This document shows positions 9,279-58,422 of a DNA stretch of 64,000 nucleotides, piece by piece (position 1 is the stretch's first letter; the number at the start of each line of letters is the position of its first letter). Below the pieces are notes generated by a model. That model did not search any database. It worked only from the letters and a program-made list of their open reading frames with translations, and was not told the origin of the DNA. Source of the DNA: Nannobrachium achirus (Eukaryota > Chordata > Actinopteri > Myctophiformes > Myctophidae); contig OY997651.1 of NCBI GenBank assembly GCA_963921795.1, positions 55,694,142 through 55,758,141 on the forward strand, written 5' to 3'. Made by a program: the position numbers and the translations under genes.

Positions 9279-9347
9279 GCAAATCTACAAGCTGACAACA
9301 TGTCTGACTGCAGCAGATTGTGAGCTTGTAGATCAACTATCTTCGGC
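9279..9347. repeat. Dispersed hairpin, copy 1
   Basis: Arms AATCTACAAGCTGACAA and TTGTGAGCTTGTAGATC-type around a roughly 15-nt loop, followed by AACTATCTTCGGC. It is one member of the dispersed hairpin family described in the findings; the block X copy 2 version is at 42356-42420. Confidence 0.85.
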
Positions 9348-9641
9348 AAGCAGGGTATTTAGCCCCCCCCCCCTGGTGGAGGCTTAGCCCTCCCTAAGCC
9401 CCCCCCCTACCCACAAAACCAGTTGTGATGAAAGATATTTATGGGATAAATAAATGAAATATTGAAATATATATGAATTATAGCTGTCAGAATTATAGTG
9501 GCAGTAATTAATTGTGTTAAAATATTTGACATAAAGAATGCCCAGAATAACAGCCCTGTTCACTGATCAGAAGTGCATTCTCTCAGTAGAAGACGTGGTA
9601 AGGTCAGCAGCCACTTAATTCTCCCCCCTCCCCCCTCCCGT

Positions 9642-9697
<56 letters not shown>

Positions 9698-10031
9698 CGA
9701 GGAGAAGAGACAGCTGCCGTCTCAAAAGAGAGTGAAGTTGTTTTAAACGTAGGTACTTCTACCTTTGTAGCTGTTGTCATCTCAAAGTAAAATCCACAAT
9801 TTTATTCTCCAACTTGCTTGGATTAGAATCCAGAGAAGTGATCATGGTGAATGCATTTTCAACACTAGATTGCCAGCCAGCTGTGTTGGGTTAACGAGGC
9901 TCGTTGAGAATGACCCTGATTTGACATAGATGCGCAAATAAGGCACTGTCTTTTATGGCAAGACATTTTAACTTTTAGTATTTTGTCTGTGCATGTGTGT
10001 CAACTGAGAATGGTTTCTCTGTAGCCTAGGT
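9348..10031. repeat. Low-complexity stretch with (AC)n at 9645-9692
   Basis: Contains a C-rich run (9363-9408), a pyrimidine run (9622-9640) and about 24 uninterrupted AC units (9645-9692). No coding signal seen up to the hAT terminus at 10032. Confidence 0.8.
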
Positions 10032-10130
10032 CAGGGGTTTTCAACAGGGGGTCCTCAGAGTTACTACAGGGGGTCCTCCAAATCTTTGCGTGATAGAAAC
10101 CTTTTTTCCTCCTTTTTTATATTAACCACT

Positions 10131-10211
10131 TGCCAAAAATAGCCGATCTACAAGCTCACAACTTCTCGTGCTGAAAGGCCTTGTGAGCTTGTAGATCGGC
10201 TATTTTCGGCA
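10131..10211. repeat. Dispersed hairpin, best-preserved long copy
   Basis: Left arm 10131-10161 and right arm 10181-10211 pair over about 30 bp with one mismatch (CCAAAAATAG against CTATTTTCGG). The core is GATCTACAAGCTCACAA and its complement. The loop is 19 nt. Confidence 0.9.
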
Positions 10212-10723
10212 AAGAGGTTTTGTAGAGGGAGGAAAGAGTAGACTAGTACAGAGTGAAAGGTCAGATGTATTCAATATTGACAATTCAAGTGGTTAAATAT
10301 ATGAAAACACATCGACATGGATCCAAAATACCCTGATGATTGTGCTGTCAAACAATGAAGTAGGCATAGGCGATTCTAGCCTCTTCCAGCGGGGGGTGCA
10401 CGACCTCTATTACCTCATGCACGCGCGCGCAGCGCGCGCCTCATGCACGCACGCGCGCGCAGCGGTTTTGTAATGTTGTTTTAGCGGATTTCTGCAGTTA
10501 ATTTTGTACCCAAATGTAACACAATATAAACAAAAAAAGTGTAAAACAGGTGCTTCTCTTTCTAGACACCATGAGCATGTCTAGTATAGGATTTATTTAC
10601 TTATTTTGCAGACAGAGGCAGCAAAGCCAAACATCAAGTTAATCATCATTCATCAAGCAATCAAGCAGTCATTTACAGTGTCAAATAAGCATTTCACAAA
10701 AACAAATAGTAGACACATCCTTA

Positions 10724-11410
10724 TTACACAATGAACTGCAGCCTCCGGGTTTTGACACTTGCAAACCTTTCAATTATTTTCTGCACTTTAATTTCGTGTA
10801 TTTTCTCAATCTGTAAAATGCCTATATCTGACACTCTTTTATCAGTCATGGTTGTCCGTAAATACGTTTTTAGTTGTCTCAAAGTAGAGAAACTGCGCTC
10901 AGCTGAAGCACTCGTAACTGGTATGGTGAGGTACAGTGTGTAGACGTGTTTTAATGTACCAAATGAATCAGAATTATGCATTCCCTTCTCTTGAAAAAAA
11001 GCAAGTTTCTTTTCAAACAGTGTTGTGTCCTCCATTTCTTTTTTTTTGCGCACATTCTCTTCCCTGTACATGGAAGTCATTACAGAGATTTCAGCTTTCA
11101 GAACATCTGCATCAAGAGTGTATGTTTGACATACGTCTGTCACACTTTTTTCTGAAGGGCTATCTGAGGTTACAACATCAGCAAGACACTGGAGGATATG
11201 AAAATCGTTTTCAGAAAAGCGCCCCTCAAGCTGTTGTATGAGTGTGTCCAGTGTTCTATACAGAATATCACATCGGTAATAATCCGCTGCTGTGTTCGGT
11301 TCTACACGGCGGCAGAACCATTTTGGGCTTAATATAATAGGGTTTATAAAAGCATGATCTGACTGTCTTAGTCTTACCTTGGGCTGGTCAGGAGGAAATG
11401 GTTCAGTCAC
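10724..11410 (-). pseudogene. hAT transposase, C-terminal part
   Basis: A 228-codon frame. The C-terminal half contains LTIPVTSASAERSFSTLR followed by LRTTM and a short helical tail, the hallmark of the hAT C-terminal dimerisation domain (Dimer_Tnp_hAT). The section before it (ADYYRCDILYRTLDTLI) resembles the linker seen in ZMYM1/P52rIPK-like hAT proteins of fish. The N-terminal BED-type zinc finger and most of the RNase-H-like catalytic core are absent. Upstream codons could lie in other exons, but none with recognisable homology was found up to the element's 5' end at 14287. Most likely a broken gene. Confidence 0.8.
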
Positions 11411-13812
11411 GCACAGTGAGACAAGAGTCCTGGCTGATAGAGCCTGAGGTCTGTGTTTTGTAGAGGAAAGTCAGGTACAAAATGATCCTCTCCATGTGAT
11501 GTTTCAGGGCAAGCAGCTATATTATAATATCTACCGGTAGTCACGTCCATAGTAGTGAAGAGCTCGAACTCCATGCTTTATTTTTAACAGATGTTGGCTG
11601 AATCTCAATGTGGATTCTTGTCTAGTCTTGGGTCCTCCTGAACTTGTGTTACGTCATCAGTCTCTGCCCAAGTACCCTTCCAATCTCAAGTCTGCGTTTG
11701 ACCAAGTAGAGACCAAATTCCCGGATGTGAACTTGATCCTCCCACTTTACAGAGGATGCATCGGAGCTGACTTCTGTAGACTTTCCACAGCAAATGGCCC
11801 AGAATGCAACACGACCCGGATAGGACCGCCCACAAGAGAGCCAGAAAAAAACAAACCAGTATGGCTGACACAGACGGACCCATGGACGGACCGCAGTACA
11901 GTCCGAATATTTTTTTCGTTTTGCCACAGAGTGTCCTTTTATGATTTATTTTAGGCTTGAATGTTGTAAATTAACTTCAAACCGGTGCACCGAACGTGTG
12001 GACGCTTGAGTCGCCGCCAGCCGCCGCTAACCTGACTGCAGATGACCGGCCATCAGGACTACACTGTTCCAAGCAATTCCAAGCAAGAGGAATTCGTCCA
12101 GAGAAATATGCATGTGTTTATTCATATTTATTATTTGGGGTGTGTGAGTGTGTAGGGCAACTGTTTATAGGACTAAAGTTGCATTAATAGTTTTCACACC
12201 TCTTAACAAAAGCTGTCAACAATGTGTGTCAATGCGATATAATGTAGGAATGGAATATGCATATGAATGGTCCATTCATTGTGTGTCATGCTAAGTACAG
12301 TAGACGAATGGTCCATTGTGTGTCATGCATGCTAAGTAGGCTACAGTATACGAATGGTCCATTGTGACATGTGTGACATACAAGTACAGTAGACTGAAGC
12401 AGTCCAAAGATGTTTTGATAATGGATTCATGAATTCAGCTTACGTCTGCAAGGTGTGTGACATTTGGCTCCATCCATAATCAGGTAAATAGAATAACATT
12501 ATGCAGTGTTAATAAATAGGCCTACACATTAAAGAGGTTATCAGCAATTGTTTACTTCATGTCATATAGAGTACAGTACATCATTCATGAATGTCATTCC
12601 TCTCCTCTTTCTTTCTATCCATCAATTTCATTCTGTTTTGGGAATAAAATTTGAGATCATCTCCTATGCCTGTGGTTTGTGTGCGATTTTGTCTTATAGG
12701 CCACTTTATGTGTGAACGTAAGTTTTAACTTGCTTTGGTGTGCAGAATTAAATTGTAGACACAGTGATATTTTCAAATAATACCATTAGTCTCTGCTAAA
12801 TATTGAATGTTTATTTTGTTTAGTTCTATATTCTATTATATAGCCTACTACTTTATACACAGTGGGGGAAATACATTATTACTAATAGCCACCCTAAACC
12901 TACAATGATCAACATTATTCCAAACGAGCTCCCAGACCTTCAAAGATGCAGGCAGCAAGCTTCTCTCCTCACCTCCTCCATACACCAGAGGTATGACAAC
13001 GGATGCAGGATGCGATAATGGAATAATAATAGCATACAGCATAGGTGGGCACGAAATGGCAGTGGCACTGTAATGTAAAAATTGCTGTTTTGTCAAAATG
13101 TTAAATGGAATATTTTATAAATGGTCTGAACTCTGAAGTAATGTAAAGTAAGCCTGACAGTACTGTCTCATTTTCGTTTTACATTGGATAGACATTCATA
13201 TGGCATATTGATAATGTGTCATAAATAATGCCACATTAAAAATAATGCCACACGAAAGGCTATCCAATGTAAAACAAAGATGAGTTCATAAAAGAATATG
13301 CTCCCCTTAGAATGTTGGCTGTGGAAGTGGCCAGTGATAATAACCTGCACTGCAGGCTACTGTTTCGATGTGTTTACAGTAGGCCTATATCTATGTAACA
13401 TAATGGCATGCCATATACTTTCCAAAGTTTGGTGCGCAAATCATGAAAAAAGAAAACGACGCATTGCTCTATTGTTCTGATGGCAATGCATTAGGGTCTG
13501 TACTAAGGCTCTCATAAATTACACAATCGGGCAGCCGCCTATCATAATAAATGCCAAGTCGTGTATTTATTTTCCTGGCTGATAGGCCTAACCCTACATT
13601 ATAAGCATATTAACAAAAACGTTTTAACATTTATATAATTATAGAGAATATAGGCTACGTTGTGGTTTTATGTCCTCACTTTATTTGAATAGCTCTGGAT
13701 TAAGAGCACCTGCTAAATACCTATATTGTACATTATAAACAGTGGTGTTTGTATAATATTTTTATATTGTAAAGTGCATGTGCCTATGCCTATTTTATAC
13801 TACAAAGAAACC
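11411..13812. other. Non-coding interior of the inner hAT element
   Basis: No convincing coding exon. At 11590-11960 a segment starting GGCTGAATCTCAATGTGG has the look of a further MITE end. At 12265-12395 the words GAATGGTCCATT and AGTACAGTAGAC recur three times in a loose repeat of about 50-60 bp. At 13174-13278 the pair TTTTACATTGGATAG / CTATCCAATGTAAAAC forms an inverted repeat about 100 bp across. Confidence 0.5.
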
Positions 13813-13862
13813 TGATCTACAAACTAACAATGCTTTGCATAGAGTTGTTAGTTTGGAGATCT
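13813..13862. repeat. Dispersed hairpin, diverged copy with matched arm changes
   Basis: Arms TGATCTACAAACTAACAA and TTGTTAGTTTGGAGATC. Relative to the family core, GCTCACAA has become ACTAACAA on the left and TTGTGAGC has become TTGTTAGT on the right, so pairing is retained. Confidence 0.85.
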
Positions 13863-14382
13863 GCACTGGGCATCTCCACACAGAGAACAAGCTGAGGTGG
13901 TGACGTCACCGAGTACGCTGCAGGAAGTACTGTTCCAAACCCAGAATCAGCGACGTGCGTCCTCCCGTCCCTGGAAGTTCTTACTCCCAAGGCGAACCTG
14001 CAAGTCTGAACTACCAAGGACCCAAGGACCCAGTTACCAAGCCTGCGATTGAGAAACAGCCGTTGTTTTCAATTTCAATACTGGCGCGTGGATATGACAT
14101 CACATCAGGAGGGGAGGGGGGGGGGCTGCCTGGAGCTGCCAGCCTCTATCACTACCACTAGGGGGTGTTGTTGTATTCGGTCTGAGTGGATGTAAAGTTA
14201 CATTACAAAAAAAAAAAAAATCAAAATGGCCGCCTGGCGGCCAGGGGTTGCACGTGCACCCTAGGACACCCCTTAAAATCGCCTATGGAAGTAGGCTATA
14301 TGGAAGAAAAGCTTGTGGGGGGGTCCCTGCTTCATCTCTCTCAACTAAGGGGTCCTTGGCCTGAAAACGTTGAAGACCCCTG

Positions 14383-15102: not shown

Positions 15103-15708
15103 GGGGGGTTAGCCCCCCCTCTAAATGGTAAATGGTAATTGGTGCATTTATATAGCGCTTTTATCTGGGGTACGTGTATGCACACATATGTGTGTGCGCG
15201 CGAATAAATGTGCGTGGACATTTTTAGGGTAATATTTTTTTCTGTTCAAATCAGGCAGTAACTATGAACAATTGTCTTGCTTGTTTGGTAGAAAGTCACT
15301 CCACACAGTAGATTGAGCGATGCAGAGCCCAGGCCCAGCACGGGGAAATCTCGCTTTTTCAACGGCCCATCATTTTGACCAATAGGGTTAGGTTTAGGCA
15401 TAGTTTTACTGAGGTAAGGGTTAGGTTTAGGCATAGTGGTTAACATTCACCAGGTTAGCATTCACCAGCATTGGCAGGTTAGCATTTCACCAGGTTAACA
15501 TTCACCCACGTCGAAAAGATGTGCCGTCGAAAATATGCCATGTCAAAATGATGACACGCTCCCACCCAGCACAAGCGTGTGTGTGTGTGAGTCGGGTGGT
15601 CAGACAGAGAGAGAGAACTAGCAGCAGGGGAGGAGGAACCGAGCTGAGGCGAGGAAGCCAGAGAGAGAGATAAAGAGACACGCCATGCACGTTTGTGTGA
15701 GTCACTGT

Positions 15709-15767
15709 CTCACTGAGGAGCAGGCAGCCAGCACACGGAGGCAGAGTGCTGCCTGCTCCTCAGTGAG
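15709..15767. repeat. 20-bp perfect stem hairpin, conserved in all unit copies
   Basis: Arms 15709-15728 and 15748-15767 are exact complements around a 19-nt loop. Counterparts lie at about 20340-20398 (B, one arm change), 24780-24838 (C) and 44354-44412 (D). Confidence 0.9.
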
Positions 15768-15832
15768 AGAGAGTAGTCTGAGAGGGAATAGTAAGACACA
15801 TTTGGGTTTTATCTCTGGCTCCTGTCAACAAT

Positions 15833-17979: not shown

Positions 17980-18162
17980 GGACGCGGTCACAGTGCACGT
18001 TATTCTACCTGTTGAGGGTGGATTCTGACAATGCATTTCAATAGGAATGGAGAGGTTTTTTGCAGAAATCCTCAAATGGCTTCAAACCACTCCATTCCCA
18101 TTGAAATGCATTGTCAGAATCCTCCCTCATCGGTAGAATAGTTTTCCGGTGTGACCGAGCCC
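17980..18162. mobile_element. Palindromic MITE with GGTCACA termini, copy A
   Basis: Begins GGACGCGGTCACAG and ends TGTGACCGAGCCC. Arms AGGGTGGATTCTGACAATGC / GCATTGTCAGAATCCTCCCT are nearly perfect complements, so the whole 183 bp folds. It starts immediately after the TTAA of the neighbouring MITE. Copies: 22035-22217, 37383-37565, 46756-46938. Its own target duplication is not visible. Confidence 0.75.
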
Positions 18163-18733
18163 TACTGCATCTTTCTGTCCCTCTCTGTTGAAACCATGCT
18201 GGTTTACATTGTGAGTTTAACAGTGAGATCCGGCCTAGAGCCCGCCTGCTGTATCCTACTGTATCTGCTACATTTGACCGCACAAAGCACGTTATGCAGC
18301 GTGACACAAGCAGCGTTTCCGTATCCGCTCTAAGACGTGGAACGGATCTGCAACCTGAACCTGATCACCAGCCGTTCTAACACTACTAGTCAGGGTTGAC
18401 AGGTCTGCATATTTTAAGCGATGTGTGCTTGTTTTTCCTGGAAAGTCTACTGTATAATGAATATTGATAGTTGTGGGTTGCGTTATGTTGGCTTGTTAGT
18501 GAAGTGTAGTTGTTAATTTTGTCTTGTTTCTAAAGTGTAATTGTCCTAGTGTGAGCTTGTAGATCTGCTATGTTAACAGTGGTTAACTGACTTGGCTTTT
18601 CACCCACGCTTTGTATGAGCAACGCTGGTCTTGAGGAAACCACAAACTTCCTGTCTGCCTTCAGACGGTTGCATCTCAAAAACCAACTGCTGGTCTGAAT
18701 TATAGCTTTCAGTAGCTCTAAATGCAACATGCA

Positions 18734-19165: not shown

Positions 19166-19433
19166 GCCAACTCCCCAGTGGGAGCGTGTCGCTGTTACTA
19201 CATGTCATCTTTTCGACACCCGACTCTAACCCTCACCCTAACCATAACCTCCGTGGAGTGAGTCGCTAACCCTCCGGTCGAAATGATGGGCGTTCGCAAA
19301 AGCGAGATTTCCCCCTCGATGCGATGCAGAGCCCAGGCCCAGCACGGGGAAATCTCGCTTTTTCGACAGCCCATCATTTCGACTTGGGGTTAGGTTTAGG
19401 CATAGTTTTACTGAGGTTAGGGTTAGGTTTATG

Positions 19434-20085: not shown

Positions 20086-20611
20086 TAGTGGTTAACATTC
20101 ACCAGGTTAGCATTCACCAGCGTCGGCAGGTTAGCATTTCACCAGGTTAACATTCACCCACGTCAAAAAGATGTGCTGTTGAAAAGATGCTATGTCAAAA
20201 TGATGCCCAGCACAAGTGTGTGTGTGAGAGAGAGACAGAGAGAGAGAACTAGCAGCAGGGGAGGAGGAACCGAGCCGAGGCGAGGAAGCCAGAGAGAGAG
20301 ATAAAGAGACACGCCATGCACGTTTGTGTGAGTCACTGTCCCACTGAGGAGCAGGCAGCCAGCACACGGAGTCAGAGTGCTGCCTGCTCCTCAGTGAGAG
20401 AGAGTAGTCTGAGAGGGAAAAGTAAGACACATTTGGGTTTTATCTCTGGTTCCTGTCAACAATATGTGTCCCCAAATCACCAGAAAAAGTCTAGATTTGT
20501 CGCTAGCAGCTTTTCAGTAATTAAGTCTCCAGATAAATCTAGCGACAAATTCCCTAAGTTGGCAACACTGTAAGGACTTTCAAAACATAATAAAAACTAA
20601 ATGGGGAACAT

Positions 20612-22034: not shown

Positions 22035-22217
22035 GGACGCGGTCACAGTGCACGTTATTCTACCTATTGAGGGTGGATTCTGACAATGCATTTCAATAGG
22101 AATGGAGAGGTTTTTTGCAGAAATCCTCAAATGGCTTCAAACCACTCCATTCCCATTGAAATGCATTGTCAGAATCCTCCCTCATCGGTAGAATAGTTTT
22201 CCGGTGTGACCGAGCCC
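22035..22217. mobile_element. Palindromic MITE with GGTCACA termini, copy B
   Basis: Same ends and arms as the copy at 17980-18162, again starting directly after the TTAA. Confidence 0.75.
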
Positions 22218-22612
22218 TACTGCATCTTTCTGTCCCTCTCTGTTGAAACCATGCTGGTTTACATTGTGAGTTTAACAGTGAGATCCGGCTTAGAACCTGC
22301 CTACTGTATCCTACTGTATCCGCTACATTTGACCGCACGAAGCACGTTATGCAGCGTGACACAAGCAACGTTTCCGTATCCGCTCTAAGACGTGGAACGG
22401 ATCTGCAACCTGAATATGATCACCAGCCGTTCTAACACTACTAGTCAGGGTTGACAGGTCTGCATATTTATAAGCGATGTGTGCTTGTTTTTCCTGGAAA
22501 GTCTACTGTATAATGAATATTGATAGTTGTGGGTTGCGTTATGTTGGCTTGTAAGTGAAGTGTAGTTGTTAATTTTGTCTTGTTTCTAAAGTGTAATTGT
22601 CCTAGTGTGAGC

Positions 22613-22757
22613 TTGTAGATCTGCTATAGTTAACAGTGGTTAACTGACTTGTAGATCTGCTATGTTAACAGTGGTTAACTGACTTGTAGATCTGCTATGT
22701 TAACAGTGGTTAACTGACTTGTAGATCTGCTATGTTAACAGTGGTTAACTGACTTGG
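22613..22757. repeat. 35-bp segment, four tandem copies
   Basis: Unit CTTGTAGATCTGCTATGTTA followed by ACAGTGGTTAACTGA, four times in a row. Copies A (18555) and C (38863) have it once. The unit contains one arm of the dispersed hairpin family and a GTTAACAGTGGTTAAC inverted word. Confidence 0.95.
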
Positions 22758-25913: not shown

Positions 25914-26164
25914 GCGTCGTTGTCGGGTGAAAACCCTGTATGTGCAAAACTGTTCATTTTGCATTTATCATTTTAAAAATGATTTAAACTAGTGAAAACA
26001 GCCGATCTACAAGCACACGGTGCGAGGCGTTGTGTGCTTGTGCTAGATCTGCTGTTTTCACTACTTTAGTGCGACCGCCTTGTATGATGAAGCAGGGCTT
26101 TACTTTACTAAAGAACGTACACATTTGAAACTTGGAGATACAAGGTTTCCGCCCGACAACGACG
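25914..26164. mobile_element. MITE with CGTCGTTGTCGGG termini holding a hairpin
   Basis: Ends GCGTCGTTGTCGGGTGAAAA and the inverse of CGTCGTTGTCGGGCGGAAAC. ATA lies on both sides (25911-25913, 26165-26167), while copies A and B read CAACATATGAAC with no insertion. The dispersed hairpin sits at its centre. Copy D has the same element at 46160-46404. Confidence 0.85.
25991..26062. repeat. Dispersed hairpin inside a MITE (copy C)
   Basis: Arms AGTGAAAACAGCCGATCTAC plus AAGCACAC, and GTGTGCTTG...TAGATCTGCTGTTTTCACT with a 3-nt insertion. Relative to the family, CTCACA became CACAC on the left and TGTGAG became GTGTG on the right, and the outer AAAATAG/CTATTTT became AAAACAG/CTGTTTT. Both are matched changes. 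Copy D version: about 46235-46302. Confidence 0.85.
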
Positions 26165-26499: not shown

Positions 26500-26909
26500 A
26501 GGAAAATTCCAGAATAAAACATATTAATCCTTAATCAGCCTTTTATCACGTCTGTACATACCTGGTATGATGGATTTTTATCATAGTCCTTCCAGTTTTT
26601 ACTTCTCCTGGACTCCTCAGATCTCTCTCCCACAGCCAAAACGGCGGTCAATTGTGGTTCTCCCAAAGCGCTAATTTTCACCGCTGCAAAGTTACTTTTT
26701 TCTTCATAAATCTGCTATTTATAGTTCATTGAGAGCCAGTAATCCACTGTTTTATCGCGGGTTGAGGGAAATGGCCGTTGTTGACATGATCCCAATAGTA
26801 CTCACAGAAGAAGAATGAAGTCTCGCGTCTCGCGTGATTACCGCGTTTCCTTTAGCTTTTTCTTTAGCGCAAAAGAAAGCTTTCTCCTGGAGTTATTACA
26901 GCCAGTATG
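26500..26909 (+). repeat. Left terminal inverted repeat of the TTAA element
   Basis: 410 bp with near-perfect inverse at 36969-37378. It includes CTCGCGTCTCGCGTGATTAC and ends CAGCCAGTATG. The homology resumes after the foldback insertion (GTGACGTGACG at about 27660-27671 against the inverse near 36953-36963), showing that the repeat was longer and was interrupted. Confidence 0.95.
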
Positions 26910-27653
26910 TACACAACAAGGCATCGTGGTATATATATAAAAAATAAGAAAGCAGAAGAATATAATCTAGTTAGTCTATTGATCGCTAGAATCTAGTAAT
27001 ATGACTGAGAAGGATTCATAACAAAGCATTTTAACGGACTTCCTGTAGTCATAAGGTAATTCTATTACCTTTATTTATTTTATTTTTTCCTCAATACATT
27101 TCTTCGATTTTATTTATTATTTATTTATGGAATTACTTATAAAATAACTTTGACGTGTATTATTATTTGTAAACAATGTAGGCTACAATATAATCACAAA
27201 ATAATCGTATTTTCCTCAAGACATTCTGCAATGCCTCACCAAATAAACGTTAGGTAAAAAGTACCTCATGAAAGACACGTTTCTGTGGTCATGAAGTAAT
27301 TTTTACCTAAAGTTTATTTGGTGAGGCATTGCAGAATGTCTTGAGGAAAATACGATTATTTTGTGATTATATTGTAGCCTACATTGTTTACAAATAATAA
27401 TACACGTCAAAGTTATTTTATAAGTAATTCCATAAATAAATAATAAATAAAATCGAAGAAATGTATTGAGGAAAAAATAAAATAAATAAAGGTAATAGAA
27501 TTACCTTATGACTACAGGAAGTCCGTTAAAATGCTTTGTTATGAATCCTTCTCAGTCATATTACTAGATTCTAGCGATCAATAGACTAACTAGATTATAT
27601 TCTTCTGCTTTCTTATTTTTTATATATATACCACGATGCCTTGTTGTGTACAT
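26907..27653. repeat. 747-bp foldback palindrome
   Basis: Starts ATGTACACAACAAGGCATCG and ends with the exact inverse. Arms of about 360 bp are almost perfectly complementary around a short centre near 27280 (CATGAAAGACACG / TGTGGTCATG), with mismatches concentrated near the centre. Both arms hold TATATATATA near the outer end. No coding capacity. Target duplication unresolved (possibly ATG). It sits within the left inverted repeat of the TTAA element. Confidence 0.95.
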
Positions 27654-29000: not shown

Positions 29001-29067
29001 CGAAAATAGCTGATCTACAAGCTCTCAACACGTTGTGCTGCGAGAGCTTGTAGATCAGCTATTTTCG
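29001..29067. repeat. Dispersed hairpin with a perfect 26-bp stem
   Basis: Arms 29001-29026 (CGAAAATAGCTGATCTACAA then GCTCTC) and 29042-29067 are exact complements around a 15-nt loop. Compared with the family core, CCGATC to CTGATC and CTCACA to CTCTC are both mirrored in the other arm. Confidence 0.95.
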
Positions 29068-31952: not shown

Positions 31953-34481
31953 TCACTTGTCCCAGGGATAGTAGTCATCCTCTCCATAATCAACTTCCCT
32001 CCAATTATTTGAATTTTGTCTGTAGAATAGACCCATCTGACGGCTCGTTGGCTCCATCTCCTTCTGTTGGGCAGCTAATCTCCAAGGTGGACACTGTTCC
32101 TCTCTTTGGTTGCACTGTCTCCAGAAGTGCGTTCTCTTGTGACAGATATAACAGGGTGCTTTCAATTTCCCTCGTCGTCTCTGCTGCCGTGGGAAAGGTG
32201 GACGCACTGCAACACAATCCCTTGTGAAATGGGTCATCTCTCCACAAGTGTAGCATCCGGCATAATACGATGGGATCTGTTGTAGTCTCTGGAACTGGTT
32301 TGGTTGATAAGCATCATACTCCGGAACTGTTGCATACTGCTGCACAAATGGGGGAATAGGCACCGATTGTGGCACCTTTTGCTCTGTGTGCGGGTAGCTG
32401 ACAGACTCATCAGCACCTGGCAAGGGCTGACTTCCTTGTGGTTGTCGTTTCTCCATGATCTCTGCAAGCTGTGCTTTCTGTAGCATCCTTTTTATGGCTA
32501 AAGCCTGCGACTTCTCGTCGGCCTCTCTCTTACGGACTAAATTCACCGCGTGTGCCACTTGTTTCGTGTAGGACTTAATGTTCATTGCAGAAAGTTCCGG
32601 TACAAGCTCAAGCTCAGATGTCATCGCTTCTGGTAGTCCCTGCATGATTTTTGATCTAACCAGGGCTTCATCAATGTCACTCCGGGTAGCATTTCTTCCT
32701 GTTAAATCTGCCCACTGCTCGTACACTCTGGAAATGTAGTTATTGGGATCCTCATCCTCTCGCAGTGGGTCAATGACTACAGAATCCAAGGTCCTATTCC
32801 ACGGATAGTGGACACTAAACGCACGCCCCAGCACACCCCTGTGCTCGGCGAAAGGGACTGCGTCATATTCTCCATTCTCAATAAATTGAGTAAGTCCTGC
32901 TTCGGTCAAGATGTCAGTCAACACCTGTTCTCCAGTGGGTCCAGTAGCACGTGTAACTAGCCTCTTAAAATCACCCATCGCTAATGGAATATCCAAGACA
33001 AGCTTCTCCAACTTGCTAAGCCATCCGCAAGCTCCTTCTTCAAGATTTGGCAAATGACGCTCAAGGTGTAAAACCTCCATGCTTGACAATGGCTTATAGT
33101 CCAGAATCTGGTCTCTGAGGAACACTGGTGCTTGTTTCACAGCGTATTGAGACCTCCTTTCATCCTCCTGTCTCGGTTCAGGACTCCTGCTCTGTGGTGC
33201 GCTTGCTCTTCTGATGACACGCTTGGTAGTTTGACAGTGGTCGTCATCTGTTCTTCTGCGCTTCCTCGTCTCCTGAGGGTTCATTAGGTTTTGACTCTCC
33301 TCAGCCATACTTCTTCGGTAAACACCTGACTTCTTAATCTTCCACAAAATGTCATCAAAAGTCATTGTTAGCTCAGCTTCTGCCGCTGAAAGCTGACTCA
33401 GTTTTTTAGTCAAGCGGACACACTGTGCTTGGTGTCTCTTCAACTTTTTGCCAATAGCAATCAAAGTCTCAAAAAGGTTTCTCTGCTCCTCATCGTCACT
33501 GTCCATCTGAGACTCCGTAGAATCTTCCTCTGCTGGGCTGGTGTCGTCTGGTAGACAGGAACGTTCTGTGCACTTCCTGCCACCATGGCGGGCATGCCAA
33601 TGTCCTCTGTCGTCACCGCGGTGAGCGCTCTCCTCACTGTTACGTCTGCTGTCATCGCGGTGTCTGCTGTCCTTGCTGCGGCGGTCAGCAGCTCCTCTCG
33701 CTGTAGTCATCATCACCTTTCTCTTGTGCAGGCTGTGGCCTGTTCTGCTTGGTTCAGGTAGGTCAGGTTGCACTGCTGGTGTCATCGCTGACTCCTCCTC
33801 TCCATGACTCGTCCTGGTGCTCAATCCAAAAGGTACTGCTGCAGCTGCTGTGGTCGTAGCTGGCTGCTTCTCCTCTCCTAATGGAGACTCTCCTTGTGCT
33901 GCCAGTGTCAATGTCTCTATACAGGGAGGTAGCCTGCTCTCTGCTCTCTGTGGCTGTGATAAGCATGGCAAAGGCTTAGGTTGAAAGAAATAAGGGTGCA
34001 TGGGGGGAAAGAGCTGTGGCTCTTCACATGCTGACAGATGTGATGTCACATGTTGTTGAGCTGCTTCGCATACTTTAGCAGAGCTAATCAGCCGCTTTGC
34101 CTCTCTAAAAAACAGATCCAAGACGGCCAGTTCCAGCTGTCTTTTCTTCTTTCTTTTCTCTGTTTTTTGTTCTGCTCTAAATGTACGGACTAATACATCC
34201 ATCGTCTTAATAAGTTTCATATCAAAACTCCCTTGCTCTGGCCATGCAGGTTCTATGTCACTCCACCTTATTGACCACTTTCTTGTGACATCAAATATAC
34301 CTAATGGACTGGATTCTTGTATGACCTCTGCCGGCGTCATAACTTTCTCAGAATCCATCTTAAAACTAAATGAGTAAAAAATAAACGAAGACAAAAAAAG
34401 TAATGGTGTCTTGTTTACAAAAGTCATAATAGTAGAGAAAGTGAAAGATAAAGAGAGAGAGTTAGTCACACACTCATTCAA
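31953..34481 (-). CDS. gag: Retroelement Gag polyprotein
   Basis: 842 codons from the first Met; the more likely start is Met 42 (ATG at 34358-34356), because residues 1-41 are hydrophobic read-through of leader and a T-rich ATTTAG acceptor-like site precedes Met 42. The N-terminal third is proline- and charge-rich. Residues near 255-330 are Arg/Ser/His-rich. A capsid-like helical region lies at roughly 455-675. Two CCHC zinc knuckles of CX2CX4HX4C type sit at 743-756 and 777-790, separated by a basic linker. Gag assembles particles and packages RNA. No protease motif or frameshift into pol follows the stop at 31953. The frame is intact, consistent with recent activity. Confidence 0.85.
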   Translation of the reverse strand: MNECVTNSLSLSFTFSTIMTFVNKTPLLFLSSFIFYSFSFKMDSEKVMTPAEVIQESSPLGIFDVTRKWSIRWSDIEPAWPEQGSFDMKLIKTMDVLVRTFRAEQKTEKRKKKRQLELAVLDLFFREAKRLISSAKVCEAAQQHVTSHLSACEEPQLFPPMHPYFFQPKPLPCLSQPQRAESRLPPCIETLTLAAQGESPLGEEKQPATTTAAAAVPFGLSTRTSHGEEESAMTPAVQPDLPEPSRTGHSLHKRKVMMTTARGAADRRSKDSRHRDDSRRNSEESAHRGDDRGHWHARHGGRKCTERSCLPDDTSPAEEDSTESQMDSDDEEQRNLFETLIAIGKKLKRHQAQCVRLTKKLSQLSAAEAELTMTFDDILWKIKKSGVYRRSMAEESQNLMNPQETRKRRRTDDDHCQTTKRVIRRASAPQSRSPEPRQEDERRSQYAVKQAPVFLRDQILDYKPLSSMEVLHLERHLPNLEEGACGWLSKLEKLVLDIPLAMGDFKRLVTRATGPTGEQVLTDILTEAGLTQFIENGEYDAVPFAEHRGVLGRAFSVHYPWNRTLDSVVIDPLREDEDPNNYISRVYEQWADLTGRNATRSDIDEALVRSKIMQGLPEAMTSELELVPELSAMNIKSYTKQVAHAVNLVRKREADEKSQALAIKRMLQKAQLAEIMEKRQPQGSQPLPGADESVSYPHTEQKVPQSVPIPPFVQQYATVPEYDAYQPNQFQRLQQIPSYYAGCYTCGEMTHFTRDCVAVRPPFPRQQRRRGKLKAPCYICHKRTHFWRQCNQREEQCPPWRLAAQQKEMEPTSRQMGLFYRQNSNNWREVDYGEDDYYPWDK

Positions 34482-37382: not shown

Positions 37383-37565
37383 GGACGCGGTCACAGCGCA
37401 TGTTATTCTACCTATTGAGGGTGGATTCTGAGAATGCATTTCAATAGGAATGGAGAGGTTGTTTGCAGAAATCCTCAAATGGCTTCAAACCACTCCATTC
37501 CCATTGAAATGCATTGTCAGAATCCTCCCTCATCGGTAGAATAGTTTTCCGGTGTGACCGAGCCC
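37383..37565. mobile_element. Palindromic MITE with GGTCACA termini, copy C
   Basis: Same element as 17980-18162. It now lies 10.9 kb from its former neighbour, the TTAA MITE, because of the large insertion. Confidence 0.75.
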
Positions 37566-38536: not shown

Positions 38537-39553
38537 TTAACAGTGAGATCCGGCCTAGAGCCCGCCTGCTGTATCCTACTGTATCCGCTACATTTGACCG
38601 CACGAAGCACGTTATGCAGCGTGACACAAGCAGCGTTTCCGTATCCGCTCTAAGACGTGGAACGGATCTGCAACCTGAACCTAATCACCAGCCGTTCTAA
38701 CACTACTAGTCAGGGTGATGTGTGCTTGTTTTTCCTGGAAAGTCTACTGCATATTGAATATCAATATTCAATATAGTTGTGGGTTGCGTTATGTTGGCTT
38801 GTTAGTGAAGTGTAGTTGTTAATTTTGTCTTGTTTCTAAAGTGTAATTGTCCTAGTGTGAGCTTGTAGATCTGCTATGTTAACAGTGGTTAACTGACTTG
38901 GCTTTTCACCCACGCTTTGTATGAGCAACGCTGGTCTTGAGGAAACCACAAACTTCCTGTCTGCCTTCAGACGGTTGAATCTCAAAAACCAACTGCTGGT
39001 CTGAATTATAGCTTTCAGCAGCTCTGAATGCAACGGTGATTCATTGAATTTAGTTTAGAATGTAAGATTGAGGAGAATCCAAGGTGTTGCATAAATCAAC
39101 AGCATCACATTGTTATTTCACACAGACAAACATAATTCTCTCCTCCACACAGACACACACACTTTCACTTCCTTCCTAGAGATTACCCTACAGACTGGTT
39201 TCAACCAGTTCTCACGTGCACACTCATGCACCCACATGAACTCACATGAACTGTAATTTTCATCATTTTAGGGGCAAGGCCACTTGGGGTTACCATTTTT
39301 GAGGGCACAAAGGCCAAATGCCAGGGCAGGAAGGCCATCAAATAAAACAAGATTTTAGTCAATTGAAATAATTATTTCTTTAAGGAATTATGGATGATTT
39401 TAAATGTAATATGTTAGTAGATTTGGATTGTTTTACAAATGGGGACTCAAAAAGACACTGGTGTCCACATGACAAGAAAGAGACACAGATGAATACATGT
39501 TGACAAGACAGACAGAGGAAACAGTGGTACAGTCAGCTGGGCTGTGGCATCAA

Positions 39554-41190: not shown

Positions 41191-41679
41191 TCATCCAGAA
41201 GGCAAGTGACAATTGAAGGACTTTTTAATACCTTTAAAATGACAATTTAAACATTGGCCAAATTGTCAAATATTAGAGGCAGATCTACATCTGCTATGTT
41301 CACAATAGAACCGTGTTATACAAAATGTAAAGCCTCAACTTTTAGCACCCGTCAGGGTGGGGGGTCCCCAGTTAAAATATGATTATTTGGGGGGTCTAGT
41401 CTGAGAAGGTTGAGAACCACTGATCTAAACAATAATCAGAAAACATGAACAATGTCAGCATGTAATAAACACTATGTTGCATAATGTGCGTGCGTGAATG
41501 AACATCAGTATAATTATTCAGTGAGCATGAATGGGCGTTTTCACAAACGTGTTCCTGTCAGATCAGCTCTCATGTGTCATCATGACGTCTTTTCATTGTC
41601 TGGACATGTGATTGTAATAATCTGCACCTACATATTAGATGCTGCAAGAAAATGCAGATCTACAAGCTCACACCGCCTG

Positions 41680-41885: not shown

Positions 41886-42355
41886 GAGTGGACAATAATA
41901 TTACCAGAAACAAATAAAGAGATAGACCTGAATGACCATAGCAGGTCTGTAACTCAGAGTGTACAAATGGAAACCTCTTCGATCCATTTGGTTCAATTTG
42001 TACACTCTCAGAGTTAAGGGGGTCCATGAAATAAAACATTTTAGAACCACTAGTACTATTGGACTAATATGCCATAGTGTCATGATAGTAAATCAGTGTC
42101 ATACATATTCTGAAGAAATCCTGGAGACTGACATTCATTGGGTCTTATACTCCCTCAGTCAACTAGTCTCGCGTGGCCAGACTGTTTACTCCTGCACTTT
42201 CCAAATGCTTCTGTCTGTCTTTGATTAGGTTTAATAGTGACATAAGTCTATCTGAATCCCTTATCCATGTGTTATTGTTCTTTGCTGTAGTGTACATTTA
42301 TCAATATTGAATTGTAAAAGTTAGTGTTACTTAGGCTACGTTGCATCAGAGGAAA

Positions 42356-42420
42356 GCAAATCTACAAGCTGACAACATGTCTGACTGCAGCACATTGTGA
42401 GCTTGTAGATCAACTATCTT
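42356..42420. repeat. Dispersed hairpin (block X copy 2)
   Basis: Paralogue of the hairpin at 9279-9347, with small differences in the loop. Confidence 0.85.
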
Positions 42421-46159: not shown

Positions 46160-46404
46160 GCGTCGTCGGGTGAAAACCCTGTATGTGCAAAACTGTTCAT
46201 TTTGCATTTATCATTTTAAAAATGATTTAAACTAGTGAAAACAGCCGATCTACAAGCACACGGTGCGAGGCGTTGTGTGCTTGTAGATCTGCTTTTTTCA
46301 CTACTTTAGTGCGACCGCCTTGTATGATGAAGCAGGGCTTTACTTTACTAAAGAACGTACACATTTGAAACTTGGAGATACAAGGTTTCCGCCCGACAAC
46401 GACG
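46160..46404. mobile_element. MITE with CGTCGTTGTCGGG termini, copy D
   Basis: Paralogue of 25914-26164, with ATA on both sides and the central hairpin at about 46235-46302 in a cleaner form (right arm without the 3-nt insertion). Confidence 0.8.
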
Positions 46405-46755: not shown

Positions 46756-46938
46756 GGACGCGGTCACAGTGCACGTTATTCTACCTGTTGAGGGTGGATT
46801 CTGACAATGCATTTCAATAGGAATGGAGAGGTTTTTTGCAGAAATCCTCAAATGGCTTCAAACCACTCCATTCCCATTGAAATGCATTGTCAGAATCCTC
46901 CCTCATCGGTAGAATAGTTTTCCGGTGTGACCGAGCCC
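46756..46938. mobile_element. Palindromic MITE with GGTCACA termini, copy D
   Basis: Same element as 17980-18162. Confidence 0.75.
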
Positions 46939-50859: not shown

Positions 50860-53577
50860 TCATAAGTTCCTATTATACACCTTAATGGCAGCCGGCACGA
50901 AGGAGCCACCAAACCTATCAGTCTTAATTCGAGGGAGTGTGAGTCTCTGGCTAAAAACACTTCTCCTCAGGCTCAGCTCACGGAAGAGGGGGTGGGAGGG
51001 GTTGTCCAGGATGGACAACAGCTTGCTGCTCATCCTTCTCTCCGCCACCACTTCCAGGCTGTCAAGTCCCCCTCCTACAACAGAGTTGGCTTTCCTCACG
51101 ATTTTGTTGAGTTTGTCCTTGTCGGCCTTCCTGAGACCACCGCCCCATACGGCCACAGAGAAGAACAGAGCACTGGCCACTATGGAGTGGTAAAACTGTG
51201 TCAGCAGTCTCTTGCACACATCGAAGGACCTGAGCCTCCTCAGAAAGAAAAGTCTGCTCTGGCCCTTCTTGTAGAGTGCATCTGCGTTGTCCGCCCAGTC
51301 CAGTCGGTTGTTCAGGTGGACCCCCAGGTACTTGTAGGTACCAGCCATTTCCACCACGTTGCCCTTGATGGTGATGGGAGTATGGGGGGGCAGGTTTTTC
51401 CTGCGTCGCAGGTCCACAACGAGCTCCCTAGTCTTGCCCGCATTGAGCAGGAGGTGGTTCTCCTCAGCCCAGGCAACAAAGTTCTTGACTGTGCCTCTAT
51501 ACTCCTCCTCATCTCCTTCCTTCCCAATGCAGCCCATGATAGTGGAGTCATCAGAGAACTTCTGGAGATGGCAAGACTCCGTGTTGTAGCTGAAGTCGGC
51601 GGTATAGAGGGTAAAAAGGAAGGGGGACAGTACCGTCCCCTGGGGGGCACCAGTGTTACTAGTGAGCACCATGGACCTGCAGTCATGAAGCTGGACATAC
51701 TGGGGCCTGCCCGACAGATAGTCTGTGATCCAAGCAATCAGGTCCGGTTGCACCCTCATGGCCGCTAACTTCTCCGCCAGCCTAGACGGCCATATTGTGT
51801 TAAACGCACTGGAGAAGTCAAAGAAGGTAATCCGTACGTACCCCCCCGACTTCTCCAGGTGCGTGTAGGCCCTGTGAAGAAGGTGGATGACTGCATCCTC
51901 GACTCCCATCTTGGCCCGGTAGGCGAATTGGAGTGGGTCGACGTAATCCTTGACCAGCGGTCTCAGGCGTCTCAGGCAGAGCCTCTCTAGGACCTTACTG
52001 GCGTGAGCCGTCATGGCTACAGGCCTGAAGTCGTTAAGGGCGCTGGGGCGGGCTTTTTTAAGAAGTGGGATAATCCCTGCGGTTTTCCACGGCAGTGGGA
52101 ACTTGCTCCTCCTCTTGGAAAGGTTGAAGAGGTGTGTGAACACCACGTCAAGCTGCTCAGCACAAGTCTTGAGTAGCCTTGGCCTGATCCCGTCCGGCCC
52201 TGCTGCCTTCCTCACCGACAGGCGCCTCAGCTCCCCTCTGACCTCGTACCTGGAGAACTGGACCGTGCCGGAGTCAGGCTGTAGGGCGGAGGGGGGGAGA
52301 CGGGGGTGGTGGTCAGCGGCTGGCTCCCCGGATGGGGGGGGGGGGGGGGAGAGGGGGGTGGGATCAGATGTATCAAAGCGGTTGAAAAACTGATTCAACT
52401 CATCAGCTTTTTGACGCCCGCCTTCAACCACAGCCGCCCCTTTTCCCTGACCAGTGATGTTTTTCAAGCCGCGCCAGACCTCTCTGCTTGAGTTGGACTC
52501 CAGCTTACTCTCCACCTTGTCCTTGTAGTCCCTACGTGCTCTCCTTAGCTGCCTCTTCAGTTCCTTCTGGATGGCATGCGCTTCCTCCCTATTCCTAGCC
52601 ATAAAGGCCTGCTTCTTGCGGTTCAGGAGGTCTTTAATGTCTTTGGTGATCCACGGCTTGTTGTTGGAAAAACAGCACACCGTCTTGGTAGGGACAATGC
52701 TCTCCTCACAAGCCTTGATGTAGAGAGTGACACACTCAGTCAGGCCATCAATGTCATCAACAAAGTCATTATAAAACAGGTCCCAGTCCGTAGCCTCAAA
52801 GCAGTCTTGTAACCTGGACTCGACCTCCTCAGACCAAACCTGTACTGTCATGGTGGTAGGTGGCTGCCGCCTACAAACAGGCATGTAGGTAGGTGTCAGG
52901 CAGACCAGGTCATGGTCAGAGGTGCCAAGGGGTGGAAGAGCCATGGAGCTGTAAGCATCCTTAACGTTAGCATACATGAGGTCCAGTGTTCTATTTCCCC
53001 TGGTCGCACACCTCACATACTGTGTAAACCCAGTAAGTGTCCGAGTCAATGAGGCATGGTTGAAATCACCATTAATCACAATAAGTGCGCAGGGATGCTT
53101 AGTTTGGAGACCAGAGACGAGTGAATGGATGACGTCACAGGCAGTCGCAGCCCGCGCTGAGGGCGGAATGTAGGTTGTTATCACAATAATATGGGAGAAC
53201 TCACGGGGGACATAATAAGGTCTCAAACCTATCGCAAGTAATTCCACATCAGGCGTACAGATCCTAGCTTTCACAGTGATATGGCCGGGATTACAGTACC
53301 TGTTGTTCACGTAAGTAATCACTCCTCCGGCCGTCGATTTTCCAGAGGCTGCTCTGTCTCGGTCCTGTCGGACAGGCGTAAACCCCTCGAGATGTAAATC
53401 GCTATCTGGGGAGCTCGATTCTCTCCACGTCTCCGTAAAGCAAAGCAAACTCGCCTCCCTGAACTCGCGTTGGCACGCCGTCAGTCCCTCCAGCAAGTCC
53501 ATCTTGTCACTGTTCAGAGATCTCACATTCCCCATAACCAGTGACGGCAGACAGGGTTTAAACTTGCGTTTCACCAT
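50860..53577 (-). CDS. LINE endonuclease / reverse transcriptase
   Basis: 905 codons. The N-terminal apurinic-type endonuclease shows GNVRSLN (16-22), FTETW (47-51), INGDFNH (168-174) and SDH (220-222), all expected catalytic positions. A basic linker follows (about 310-360), then reverse transcriptase with FFDFSSAF (motif A, 585-592), GAPQGTVLSP (motif B, 643-652) and FSDD (motif C, 674-677), then a thumb and C-terminal region with VWGGGLRK. It nicks target DNA and copies its own RNA there (target-primed reverse transcription). No frameshift or stop, so it may be active. FSDD in place of the common YADD still keeps both aspartates. Clade CR1/Rex1-like by style; not searched. Confidence 0.9.
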   Translation of the reverse strand: MVKRKFKPCLPSLVMGNVRSLNSDKMDLLEGLTACQREFREASLLCFTETWRESSSPDSDLHLEGFTPVRQDRDRAASGKSTAGGVITYVNNRYCNPGHITVKARICTPDVELLAIGLRPYYVPREFSHIIVITTYIPPSARAATACDVIHSLVSGLQTKHPCALIVINGDFNHASLTRTLTGFTQYVRCATRGNRTLDLMYANVKDAYSSMALPPLGTSDHDLVCLTPTYMPVCRRQPPTTMTVQVWSEEVESRLQDCFEATDWDLFYNDFVDDIDGLTECVTLYIKACEESIVPTKTVCCFSNNKPWITKDIKDLLNRKKQAFMARNREEAHAIQKELKRQLRRARRDYKDKVESKLESNSSREVWRGLKNITGQGKGAAVVEGGRQKADELNQFFNRFDTSDPTPLSPPPPPSGEPAADHHPRLPPSALQPDSGTVQFSRYEVRGELRRLSVRKAAGPDGIRPRLLKTCAEQLDVVFTHLFNLSKRRSKFPLPWKTAGIIPLLKKARPSALNDFRPVAMTAHASKVLERLCLRRLRPLVKDYVDPLQFAYRAKMGVEDAVIHLLHRAYTHLEKSGGYVRITFFDFSSAFNTIWPSRLAEKLAAMRVQPDLIAWITDYLSGRPQYVQLHDCRSMVLTSNTGAPQGTVLSPFLFTLYTADFSYNTESCHLQKFSDDSTIMGCIGKEGDEEEYRGTVKNFVAWAEENHLLLNAGKTRELVVDLRRRKNLPPHTPITIKGNVVEMAGTYKYLGVHLNNRLDWADNADALYKKGQSRLFFLRRLRSFDVCKRLLTQFYHSIVASALFFSVAVWGGGLRKADKDKLNKIVRKANSVVGGGLDSLEVVAERRMSSKLLSILDNPSHPLFRELSLRRSVFSQRLTLPRIKTDRFGGSFVPAAIKVYNRNL

Positions 53578-54900: not shown

Positions 54901-54904
54901 ACAT

Positions 54905-56101: not shown

Positions 56102-56202
56102 TTGCGCCCGACGGGGGAACAGAGGAAGCGGGCGGCCGACCCGCAGCCGGGTTGAGTACTCCGGGCAGACTGCATCCTGCAACGTCGCAGATGCGAGCTG
56201 CT

Positions 56203-56230
56203 GTGAGCTTGTAGATCGGCCACTTTTGGC
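56203..56230. repeat. Half-copy of the dispersed hairpin
   Basis: TGTGAGCTTGTAGATCGGCC followed by ACTTTTGG, that is, only a right arm. Identical half-copies lie at about 60311 and 61458 in the partner segment. Confidence 0.8.
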
Positions 56231-57823
56231 ACGGCAACACGGTGTGATGACGAAGGGTCACTTTGTGTGTAACAACCGGTTTGTTTTGTAGGCTAACACT
56301 ATACAATGGAGGTTAATTAAGCGGCGGGGGAAAGTGTTATAGGAGGACGATATGGACCAGAACGTCATAATTTATTCGCATTTATTATCTGACCCGTTTC
56401 CATTCACAAATGCGCATTTAGTTCATTCGATAAAGCCTTAAAATCCACCTCCTCCAAGCGGATATTTTTTTTTGCAGATAATGAAAGTTTATTCGCATTT
56501 TGAAGTGTTTCCATGAAAAAGATTTTGCGAATAAGCCTTAAATGCGCATTAAGAGGCTTTATGGAAACGCCAGTAATGATACAATTTGTAATCAAAGTAA
56601 TTTGCTACATTTTCTCTATTTTTAATAATTCTGTGCAATTTTTCCACAAAACACTAAAACAAACTAATGTACATTTGTCTGCTATTTGTCTGGGTTGTTG
56701 TCTATATGTCTGTCTGCTATCAAGTGGGATAACATTAAAGATAGCTGAGCACATCTCTCTTTCAATTGCTTCACAATGTTATTCATGACTTGGCCCACAT
56801 TCAACACAAATGGCTTTTTACAGAAAATAAACTTGTGACAGTATAGTTATGGCTAAGGAAAATCAAATCAAATCAAACAATCTACTTAAAATAGATTCCC
56901 AGACTGTTTAGCTAGCAAATGGCTAATGATGCAGTTGTACACAGAGCTACAGTAAACCGTCTCTCTTTCATTTGAGTTGCCTTAGGCCTACAATGCTGTT
57001 TTGGGTATGCTAATTAGTCGGGCAGAGCCACTAGTAAAAAATAATAATACATAAAAATAAAAAAACTGTGATTTCAGTGGCCGCTTTCAAGATGTTTTGG
57101 CCATTATCTCTGGAACGGAAGGTCCAATCTACTCAGTTTAAAGCTTGTTGGATGCGTGAATTCGAGGACACACGAGCCGGAGTTTGAGTATCACTGCATT
57201 AGACTCTCGTGCCGGCACTGCCAGTCAGTCAGTCCCTGGCACTCGTTGGAGGTGTCCTCCTACACATGGGCGCATGCAGCCAGCTGGGTGGCAGGCGACG
57301 GCTGGGAGAGCGCTGACATTTTGGCATGGAATACATTTTGACCAAAACTAGACTGCACTCTGTCGAGGTGCCAACTTGGTCAAGGTGCACTCGTGGCCTA
57401 CTTGTTGTGACAGTGGATTGGTTTCATCTAGCAAGGTGAGAATCAGTCGCGTGCAGAGATAATTGGAGGGATAGGTGCTTAAGTCTGAAAGGGGCACTTT
57501 TTTTGGGGGCTAAATATCCATATTTTTTGGAGGCTAAATATACATATTTAGAGGAATATCGTATTTTGAAATAACACTAGGAATACAGGATTATACTCAG
57601 GGGTGCACATAACTTTTGTGGGCTAGCACATGAAGGCTACAGTGCAAGCGTGTCAGTGCTGATGTGCAACAGTGCTATATGAATATTTTTGGTGCATTTA
57701 AAAGCAATGAATAGATGAAGAACTGACTGCAGTGCAGACTGTAGACTGCAGACTGTTCTTAGACCAACAGGGGTCTGCAGCTTGGCTGGCACTGGCAAGC
57801 AGCTGTCAGCCTGTCACTGATCT

Positions 57824-58072
57824 TGTGCCCGGGTAGCCCTAGCTCAGTCGGTAGAGCTCTCGCCTTAGTACCGCAAGGTTCGATTCCGGGCACTGCCAAC
57901 TCAGCGTATGAGTAGCACGGCTTGTCAAGTTGTGCGGCAAGTACTGGGAGCTGATGGTAGGTGTGGCACTCCACCTCAGCAGTCCATCTCCCAGGGGTCT
58001 AGCACATTGTAACGGGGACAGACTCCCGCGTGTTACCGGCTGATACTGACAATAAGCCACTCCCGACCTACT
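57824..58072 (+). mobile_element. tRNA-derived SINE with empty-site partner
   Basis: Flanked by TGATCT (57818-57823 and 58073-58078); the partner reads CACTGATCTGGTTAAG at 63015 without it. Near the start are TAGCTCAGTCGGTAGAGC (A box) and AGGTTCGATTCCGGGC (B box), tRNA-like but with no full cloverleaf. The tRNA-unrelated body ends without a poly-A tail. Confidence 0.85.
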
Positions 58073-58213
58073 TGATCTGGTTAAGAATCAGGAATTATTG
58101 ATTATCAATGAGAGAGAGGGCCTCCATCCATTCATTGATTGAATGCGAGTGGACATGTGCCGGCAAGGTTTCGATTGTGCATATACTTCGCTGCGCGTGG
58201 TATCGCGCACCAA

Positions 58214-58281
58214 AAATAGCCGATCTACAAGCTCAGAACATGTCGCGGCGCGACGCGTTGTGAGCTTGTAGGTCGGCTATA
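58214..58281. repeat. Dispersed hairpin
   Basis: Arms AATAGCCGATCTACAAGCTC and GAGCTTGTAGGTCGGCTAT around a CG-rich loop (TGTCGCGGCGCGACGCG). It lies in sequence not shared with the partner segment. Confidence 0.9.
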
Positions 58282-58355
58282 ATTAAGCAAGATCTTCTTT
58301 CTTCTACAGCCTGCAGGAACGCGGGCGGCAGGCTGTATTGATGTCTAGCCACCAA

Positions 58356-58422
58356 AAATAGCCGATCTACAGGCTCACAAAGTGTCGCTTCGCTTCGCGC
58401 TGTGAGCTTGTAAATCGGCTAT
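58356..58422. repeat. Dispersed hairpin
   Basis: Arms AATAGCCGATCTACAGGCTC / GAGCTTGTAAATCGGCTAT around a GTCGCTTCGCTTCGC loop. It is only 75 bp from the preceding hairpin and, like it, is followed by ATAATT. Confidence 0.9.

Follow-up and report, generated by a model that had tools for sequence, protein, structure and literature searches.

A near-perfect palindrome carried by several repeat families of Nannobrachium achirus, with arm changes matched above chance at one stem pair

Covariation between the two arms of a hairpin is usually taken as a sign of a selected stem. In short inverted repeats, template switching has been reported to homogenise the arms and to invert short spacers (PMC8604942), and the same process has been proposed as a source of compensatory changes in RNA stems (PMC8794818), while compensatory changes in two copies of the zebrafish Angel element located within long non-coding RNAs (lncRNAs) have been attributed to selection (PMC3636048). 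A dispersed hairpin family with arms that vary together was proposed in a stretch of 64,000 nucleotides from Nannobrachium achirus (assembly GCA_963921795.1, contig OY997651.1, positions 55,694,142 to 55,758,141), referred to as the window. The original prediction left three options for the matched changes: arm-to-arm conversion by template switching, selection for the stem, or the spread of already matched variants. In the genome from which the window comes (1.66 Gb, pattern searches over its contigs), arm-to-arm homogenisation is above chance at stem pair 7, a non-CpG site and the sole pair counted genome-wide, although part of this excess may be inherited.

The palindrome and its carrier families

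The core 17-mer has 122,021 exact occurrences in the genome (61,453 + 60,568), and facing 11-nt cores, written as GATCTACAAGCN{10,40}GCTTGTAGATC, are found at 79,657 places; the reversed control gave 0 matches in both searches. Long inverted repeats capable of forming a stem-loop are present according to both the pattern search and the predicted fold. In good copies, arms of some 35-43 bp and a 3-nt loop form a near-perfect palindrome: a length of 53 nt, corresponding to 25 pairs and this loop, was found in 56 of 100 listed hairpins, and beyond GATC the pairing often extends outward by ~8-18 bp. A hairpin assembled from observed copies of one carrier family (Y, see below) is predicted to fold as DNA into a very stable structure of 42 pairs, with one mismatch adjoining GATC. 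The loops had been described as differing in sequence and length, a description that does not hold for good copies, in which 8 further bp pair down to the 3-nt loop; the supposed variable loop of 19 nt is therefore a CpG-rich inner stem plus loop, partly decayed, and in the window copy at 58214 the inner stem can still be seen running through it. Off-length copies (33-61 nt) look like deletions or insertions at the centre of the palindrome.

The size of the hairpin and its predicted stability would also suit a small-RNA precursor or another curated structured RNA. We regard this as highly improbable, as Rfam gave 0 matches at gathering score in the window and in the copies the two arms mostly decay separately. 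A microRNA family was also considered and rejected, no evidence for it having been obtained.

Flanks were compared for a sample of 109 hairpins, comprising the nine of the window and 100 lying within the first 2.6 Mb of contig C1 (genomic copies carry L numbers), including local duplicates (L017-L020, L021-L023, L100/L101). Single-linkage clustering on BLAST extent over-merged the families, so clustering was based on the flanks alone, with the hairpin excluded (clusters 0 and 2 may still be over-merged). About 70 of the 109 fall in six repeat families with mutually unlike flanks. Left and right flanks were concordant for family Y in 28 hairpins, X in 12 (six more have one X flank), U in six, Z in six, W in four (five more with one flank) and V in three, while eight hairpins have flanks that match nothing else in the sample. 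Five copies (L031, L071, L081, L064 and L078) retain one flank of their family but diverge at or close to the edge of the hairpin, as expected for a fragile palindrome.

Ends were recognised by eye for three families. Family X has the left end CAGGGGTCTTCAAC (L026, L044) and a right end like GTTGAAGACCCCTG (L044, L047, L056, w10.1); family Z has the left end CAGTGGTG (L065, L078) and, in L066 only, the right end CACCACTG; and family W has the right end GT(T/C)TGAGAA(C/T)CACTG (L083, L058). These letters resemble what we take to be hAT terminal inverted repeats. One X copy, L044, is bordered by an imperfect 8-bp duplication, CGATAGAT/CGGTAGAT, with one mismatch; this is a single copy, the others being truncated, decayed or left out. 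The suggestion that the hairpins might be the ends of a known long transposon with its middle lost does not fit X, Z and W and was rejected, since there the hairpin lies within longer elements that have ends of their own. The family X hairpin at 10130 is separated by ~0.5 kb from an open reading frame (ORF) with a hAT dimerisation domain (10724-11410, minus strand).

Of 25 core and inner positions, the arm consensuses of X and Y pair at all, those of U and W at 24 and that of Z (3 copies) at 23. As the Y group of this comparison contained W copies, its 19 matched changes were discarded and a set of 36 Y copies was used instead, obtained from 50 listed Y hairpins by dropping 12 of other length and two identical neighbours. 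In the sample, the stems of different families differ by largely matched changes, and the outer stems are likewise matched and family-specific. A palindromic target duplication was considered as the source of the matched outer stem; by eye it fits the ACTAGT of Y, but not X or Z, and it was rejected. The variant of the window copies at 25991 and 46235 is a family signature, its outer arms being found at 19,299 genomic places, and the variant at 29001 is shared by L052 and L068, whose flanks are also the same. Spread of matched variants thus explains these two of the three examples on which the original prediction was based.

The occurrence of one core in several families with unlike flanks, together with the eight copies on unmatched flanks and the matched, family-specific outer stems, could indicate that the hairpin is an independent mobile element that inserted into other families time and again, each transposition passing through a single-stranded or hairpin intermediate in which the arms regained their match. 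Inspection by eye revealed no target-site duplication round the hairpins (empty sites were not searched), and the lone copies may belong to rarer families outside the sample. We consider this possibility unlikely; it is compatible with the explanation preferred below.

Matched arm changes, loop inversion and their origin

At pair 7, 79,657 places are unchanged, 2,396 + 2,463 are changed in one arm and 197 in both arms, against 74 expected if the arms were independent. Among the first 50 distinct doubles listed (C1-C6), 38 are matched and 12 unmatched, while 41% matched is expected for draws from the one-sided spectrum at this one position (first 100 one-sided copies, C1; binomial 7e-7). When two small subfamilies are counted once, 32 of the 44 listed doubles are matched (p = 2.5e-5). 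Scaled from the listed doubles, matched doubles amount to ~150 against 31 expected and unmatched doubles to ~47 against 43. Differences in copy age would lift both classes, and this is not seen, as only matched doubles are raised; selection against mismatches would depress the unmatched class, which is not seen either. Such a pattern, with matched doubles above chance and unmatched doubles not, is the one expected of mutation and not of selection. Independence of arm substitutions, which the original prediction had named as a contrary outcome, applies to the majority of changes in resident copies, though not to all of them.

Twenty copies picked by choice comprised 16 matched pair-7 doubles, three unmatched ones and one matched double at pair 17. 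The matched pair-7 doubles stand on Y flanks (G:C, T:A and A:T) and on X, W and U flanks, some also on flanks unlike the sample, and the stem is otherwise perfect over 25 pairs in five pair-7 doubles and in the pair-17 double.

The loop provides a second trace. Among 26 Y copies whose orientation is set by their flanks (six of them chosen for double changes), the loop reads GGT in 10, ACC in five, GAT in five and otherwise in six. GGT and ACC differ at all three bases and are nevertheless reverse complements, so that one inversion replaces three substitutions. The flanks of L051 (GGT) are 97% identical to those of L057 and L096 (ACC), and genome-wide, with one Y flank anchored, 6,933 GGT loops were counted against 3,219 ACC loops. 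In family X, AGC was found in four and GCT in one of 10 copies, L044 and L109 having flanks 93% alike. An inverted GAT loop was not found among the 26 Y copies, nor was any loop inversion found in the 6 copies of family W. Spacer inversion occurs in Y, the genome-wide counts giving places and not separate inversions.

Selection for pairing of the stem, either in RNA or in extruded DNA, with a change in one arm compensated in the other, has been argued for the two Angel elements mentioned above (PMC3636048). For the present hairpin, a perfect 25-pair stem in 13 of the 36 standard-length Y copies and the stability of the predicted DNA fold agree with it. We nonetheless judge it very improbable, given that unmatched doubles are near independence, that a one-sided pair-7 variant has multiplied (it is common to 17 of the 100 listed one-sided copies) and that position -1 beside GATC, where an A of one arm faces a C, persists unpaired in 24 of 36 Y, five of six U and three of 10 X copies. 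The multiplied one-sided variant and the persistent mismatch in Y are also the reason why perfect pairing does not seem required for spread. In addition, CpG decay is often one-sided: in the pair table for C1, restricted to 53-nt hairpins (56 of 100, 52 distinct), position 19 has 10 one-sided and 0 matched changes and position 23 has 15 and 0, although matched changes occur at position 18 (two) and position 24 (nine, eight of these being a W signature).

The explanation that we prefer, with moderate confidence, is that of a palindrome module residing in non-autonomous families, whose arms are occasionally re-templated, whose loop is flipped, and whose matched variants spread with the carrier. 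The near-perfect palindrome would be carried within several non-autonomous repeat families, of which three have hAT-like ends, and would have been multiplied along with them to tens of thousands of recognisable copies. Resident copies decay mostly arm by arm, at CpG especially, as the sampled copies show. In a small share of them, copying or repair of the palindrome may use one arm to template its partner, turning a one-sided change into a matched one; the same re-templating could flip the 3-nt loop, and the re-matched variants would be multiplied along with their carrier, giving rise to new subfamilies. Support for conversion by template switching comes from the pair-7 excess of matched doubles together with the loop inversion.

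An alternative would be spread only, in which the families go back to a few old palindromes whose matched stems already differed and no re-matching followed. It accounts for the largely matched differences between family consensus stems, for the signatures at 25991/46235 and 29001, and for the mostly one-sided private changes of the sampled resident copies. Several further observations point the same way and weigh against re-templating: the excess is uneven by type (scaled, T:A ~79 against 9, G:C ~28 against 1, A:T ~43 against 21); T:A makes up 20 of the 38 listed matched doubles and could be one old subfamily, which may supply a good part of the matched excess; two small subfamilies, L135-137 and L138-140, each have a matched pair-7 change in common; and, the test being limited to one pair, old subfamilies may give part of the excess. 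Moreover, cruciform repair or arm-to-arm recombination would leave much the same traces as template switching and is indistinguishable from it here. Spread only is, however, at odds with matched pair-7 doubles that involve three base pairs on Y flanks and occur also with X, W and U flanks, with an excess that is restricted to matched doubles and survives the collapsing of two subfamilies, and with loop inversion between copies whose flanks are 97% alike, and it leaves the first origin of the matched stems unexplained. We therefore hold it to be possible but doubtful. Of the three options first put forward, spread is borne out for the family-level examples and template-switch conversion by the pair-7 excess and the loop inversion, whereas selection for the stem is not supported, unmatched doubles showing no deficit and a one-sided variant having multiplied.

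A wider reading, which we offer only tentatively, is that of a palindrome of ~80,000 copies whose arms evolve in concert by mutation alone, with template switching continually rewriting one arm from its partner and flipping the loop, whose perfect forms found subfamilies, and which has entered or been exchanged among hAT-type families. If this were true, covariation in repeats would be no evidence of a selected structure. The pair-7 pattern calls for caution when compensatory changes in repeats are read as a sign of function. With its tens of thousands of copies, the family might be used to estimate how often arms are rewritten and loops inverted in a large eukaryote genome, and the finding of one hairpin module in several families with unlike flanks raises a second question.

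Hairpin copies in the window

All nine full copies and the listed half-copies of the original prediction were located in the window (core GATCTACAAGCTCACAA and its complement). Two pairs of full copies are duplicates (9279 = 42356 and 25991 = 46235), leaving seven independent loci, and the half-copies likewise fall in duplicated sets (8451/41655; 18550/22610/38860; 56203/60311/61458). A further degenerate copy was found at 58825. The features are as follows:

9273-9343, no strand assigned: decayed hairpin copy, duplicate of 42350-42420
10130-10212, no strand assigned: hairpin copy with 32-bp arms and family X flanks (hAT-like ends)
13805-13870, no strand assigned: hairpin copy in which pairs 10 and 13 show matched changes; flanks unlike those of other sampled copies
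25985-26068, no strand assigned: family Y hairpin copy, right arm with a 3-nt insertion, duplicate of 46228-46308
29001-29067, no strand assigned: family V hairpin copy with a matched change at pair 14
42350-42420, no strand assigned: hairpin copy, duplicate of 9273-9343
46228-46308, no strand assigned: family Y hairpin copy with a matched change at pair 12
58213-58283, no strand assigned: hairpin copy in which the supposed loop is stem (1-nt loop in an ungapped scan, with mismatches)
58355-58425, no strand assigned: hairpin copy with arms as in 58213-58283 and a different centre
58825-58850, minus strand: further decayed copy with one recognisable arm (arm match)
8445-8470, plus strand: single arm whose partner is lost or can no longer be recognised, duplicate at 41648
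41648-41673, plus strand: single arm, duplicate of 8445
18549-18574, minus strand: single arm, set with 22605 and 38855
22605-22630, minus strand: single arm, followed by three more partial arms at 22641, 22676 and 22711
38855-38880, minus strand: single arm, set with 18549 and 22605
56201-56226, minus strand: single arm, set with 60308 and 61455
60308-60333, minus strand: single arm, set with 56201 and 61455
61455-61480, minus strand: single arm, set with 56201 and 60308

Chance matches to the 26-nt arm with <8 mismatches were absent from five first-order Markov windows, and random hairpins at the score used were absent from three such windows. Among the genomic copies, lone exact arms (L009, L010 and L013, of eight loci) resemble, by eye, hairpins whose other arm is damaged or lost.

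The matched arm changes reported for the window are real, at pairs 10 and 13 (13813), 12 (46235 and, by eye, 25991), 14 (29001) and outer position -7 (9279), but they are few, and one-sided changes are commoner. The pair table of eight copies (the duplicate 42356 included, 25991 left out and position -1 unscored) contains 28 one-sided changes, a number that falls to 23 when the duplicate is dropped, and at three further pairs both sides have changed but do not match. The copies at 58214 and 58356 have their arms in common but not their loops. The flanks of the latter have a weak similarity to those of the family V copy at 29001 (score 53, z ~10 against shuffled flanks), and their stems differ at pair 14.

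Arms have also been amplified into short tandem arrays, in the window at 22605-22736 and elsewhere in L027, L028 and L033-L035 (units of ~35, 31/52 and 43 bp). Other arms carry small self-complementary insertions, TACCGGTA and TAGGCCTA, at a similar arm position (C1:5458434, 6217891, 7154111, 9616887 and 10368994), which are perhaps local fold-back events; the pattern that yielded them excluded the standard spacing and displays unusual subtypes only.

Other window features and comparison with known systems

Several further structures were found in the window. Two unrelated hairpins with near-perfect stems of 18-25 bp (8553-8621 and 15705-15771, also at 20336, 24776 and 44353) have loops of exactly 19 nt, as in several copies of the core family, and a dispersed hairpin with arms of 45-46 bp is located in duplicated segments (18013-18129, 22068-22184, 37416-37532 and 46789-46905). 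An inverted repeat at 26907-27653 has 365-nt arms, 99% complementary and spaced by 17 nt. A ~3 kb tandem duplication (936-6968, 99.8% identity) extends over two related long ORFs of 714 and 465 aa, the former without a Pfam match. On the minus strand, an open frame of 905 aa (50860-53577) contains a reverse transcriptase domain, together with an endonuclease match below the cut-off, and is similar to a long interspersed nuclear element (LINE), and another of 842 aa (31953-34481) appears gag-like by eye, with no Pfam match.

Wider searches for the hairpin were also made. The core 17-mer was found in eight viral contigs with unlike flanks, six of the eight being one sequence, and these matches were set aside as chance; a 19-mer gave 0 matches in viral contigs, and neither the hairpin pattern nor a 20-mer was found in GTDB genomes. 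Neither the 17-mer nor its complement is printed in the main texts of the literature searched.

Among described systems, non-autonomous hAT elements of the type known as miniature inverted-repeat transposable elements (MITEs) are presumably among the closest to the carriers, given the hAT-like end letters of X, Z and W and the one X copy with an imperfect 8-bp duplication; unlike in such elements, the hairpin is an internal module common to families with unlike flanks, and no transposase has been linked to these families. The gadMor-hAT-1784 family of Atlantic cod, as described in PMC12368964, likewise consists of hAT-derived MITEs with internal inverted repeats and has been linked to rearrangement, but by that description it is set apart by its far greater length, its 600-bp terminal repeats and its tandem units of 167-169 bp. 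The Angel elements of zebrafish resemble the present family, by description and not by sequence, as high-copy DNA elements with foldable long inverted repeats and, in two lncRNA copies, compensatory arm changes (PMC3636048); selection was argued there, whereas here no deficit of unmatched doubles is seen at the tested pair. Finally, quasipalindrome correction and template switching (PMC8604942, PMC8794818) share with this hairpin the homogenisation of arms, the inversion of spacers of 2-5 bp and arms of over 9 bp, the known cases in those sources being yeast coding genes and RNA genes, whereas here a similar signature is counted within one genome, in a repeat with tens of thousands of copies.

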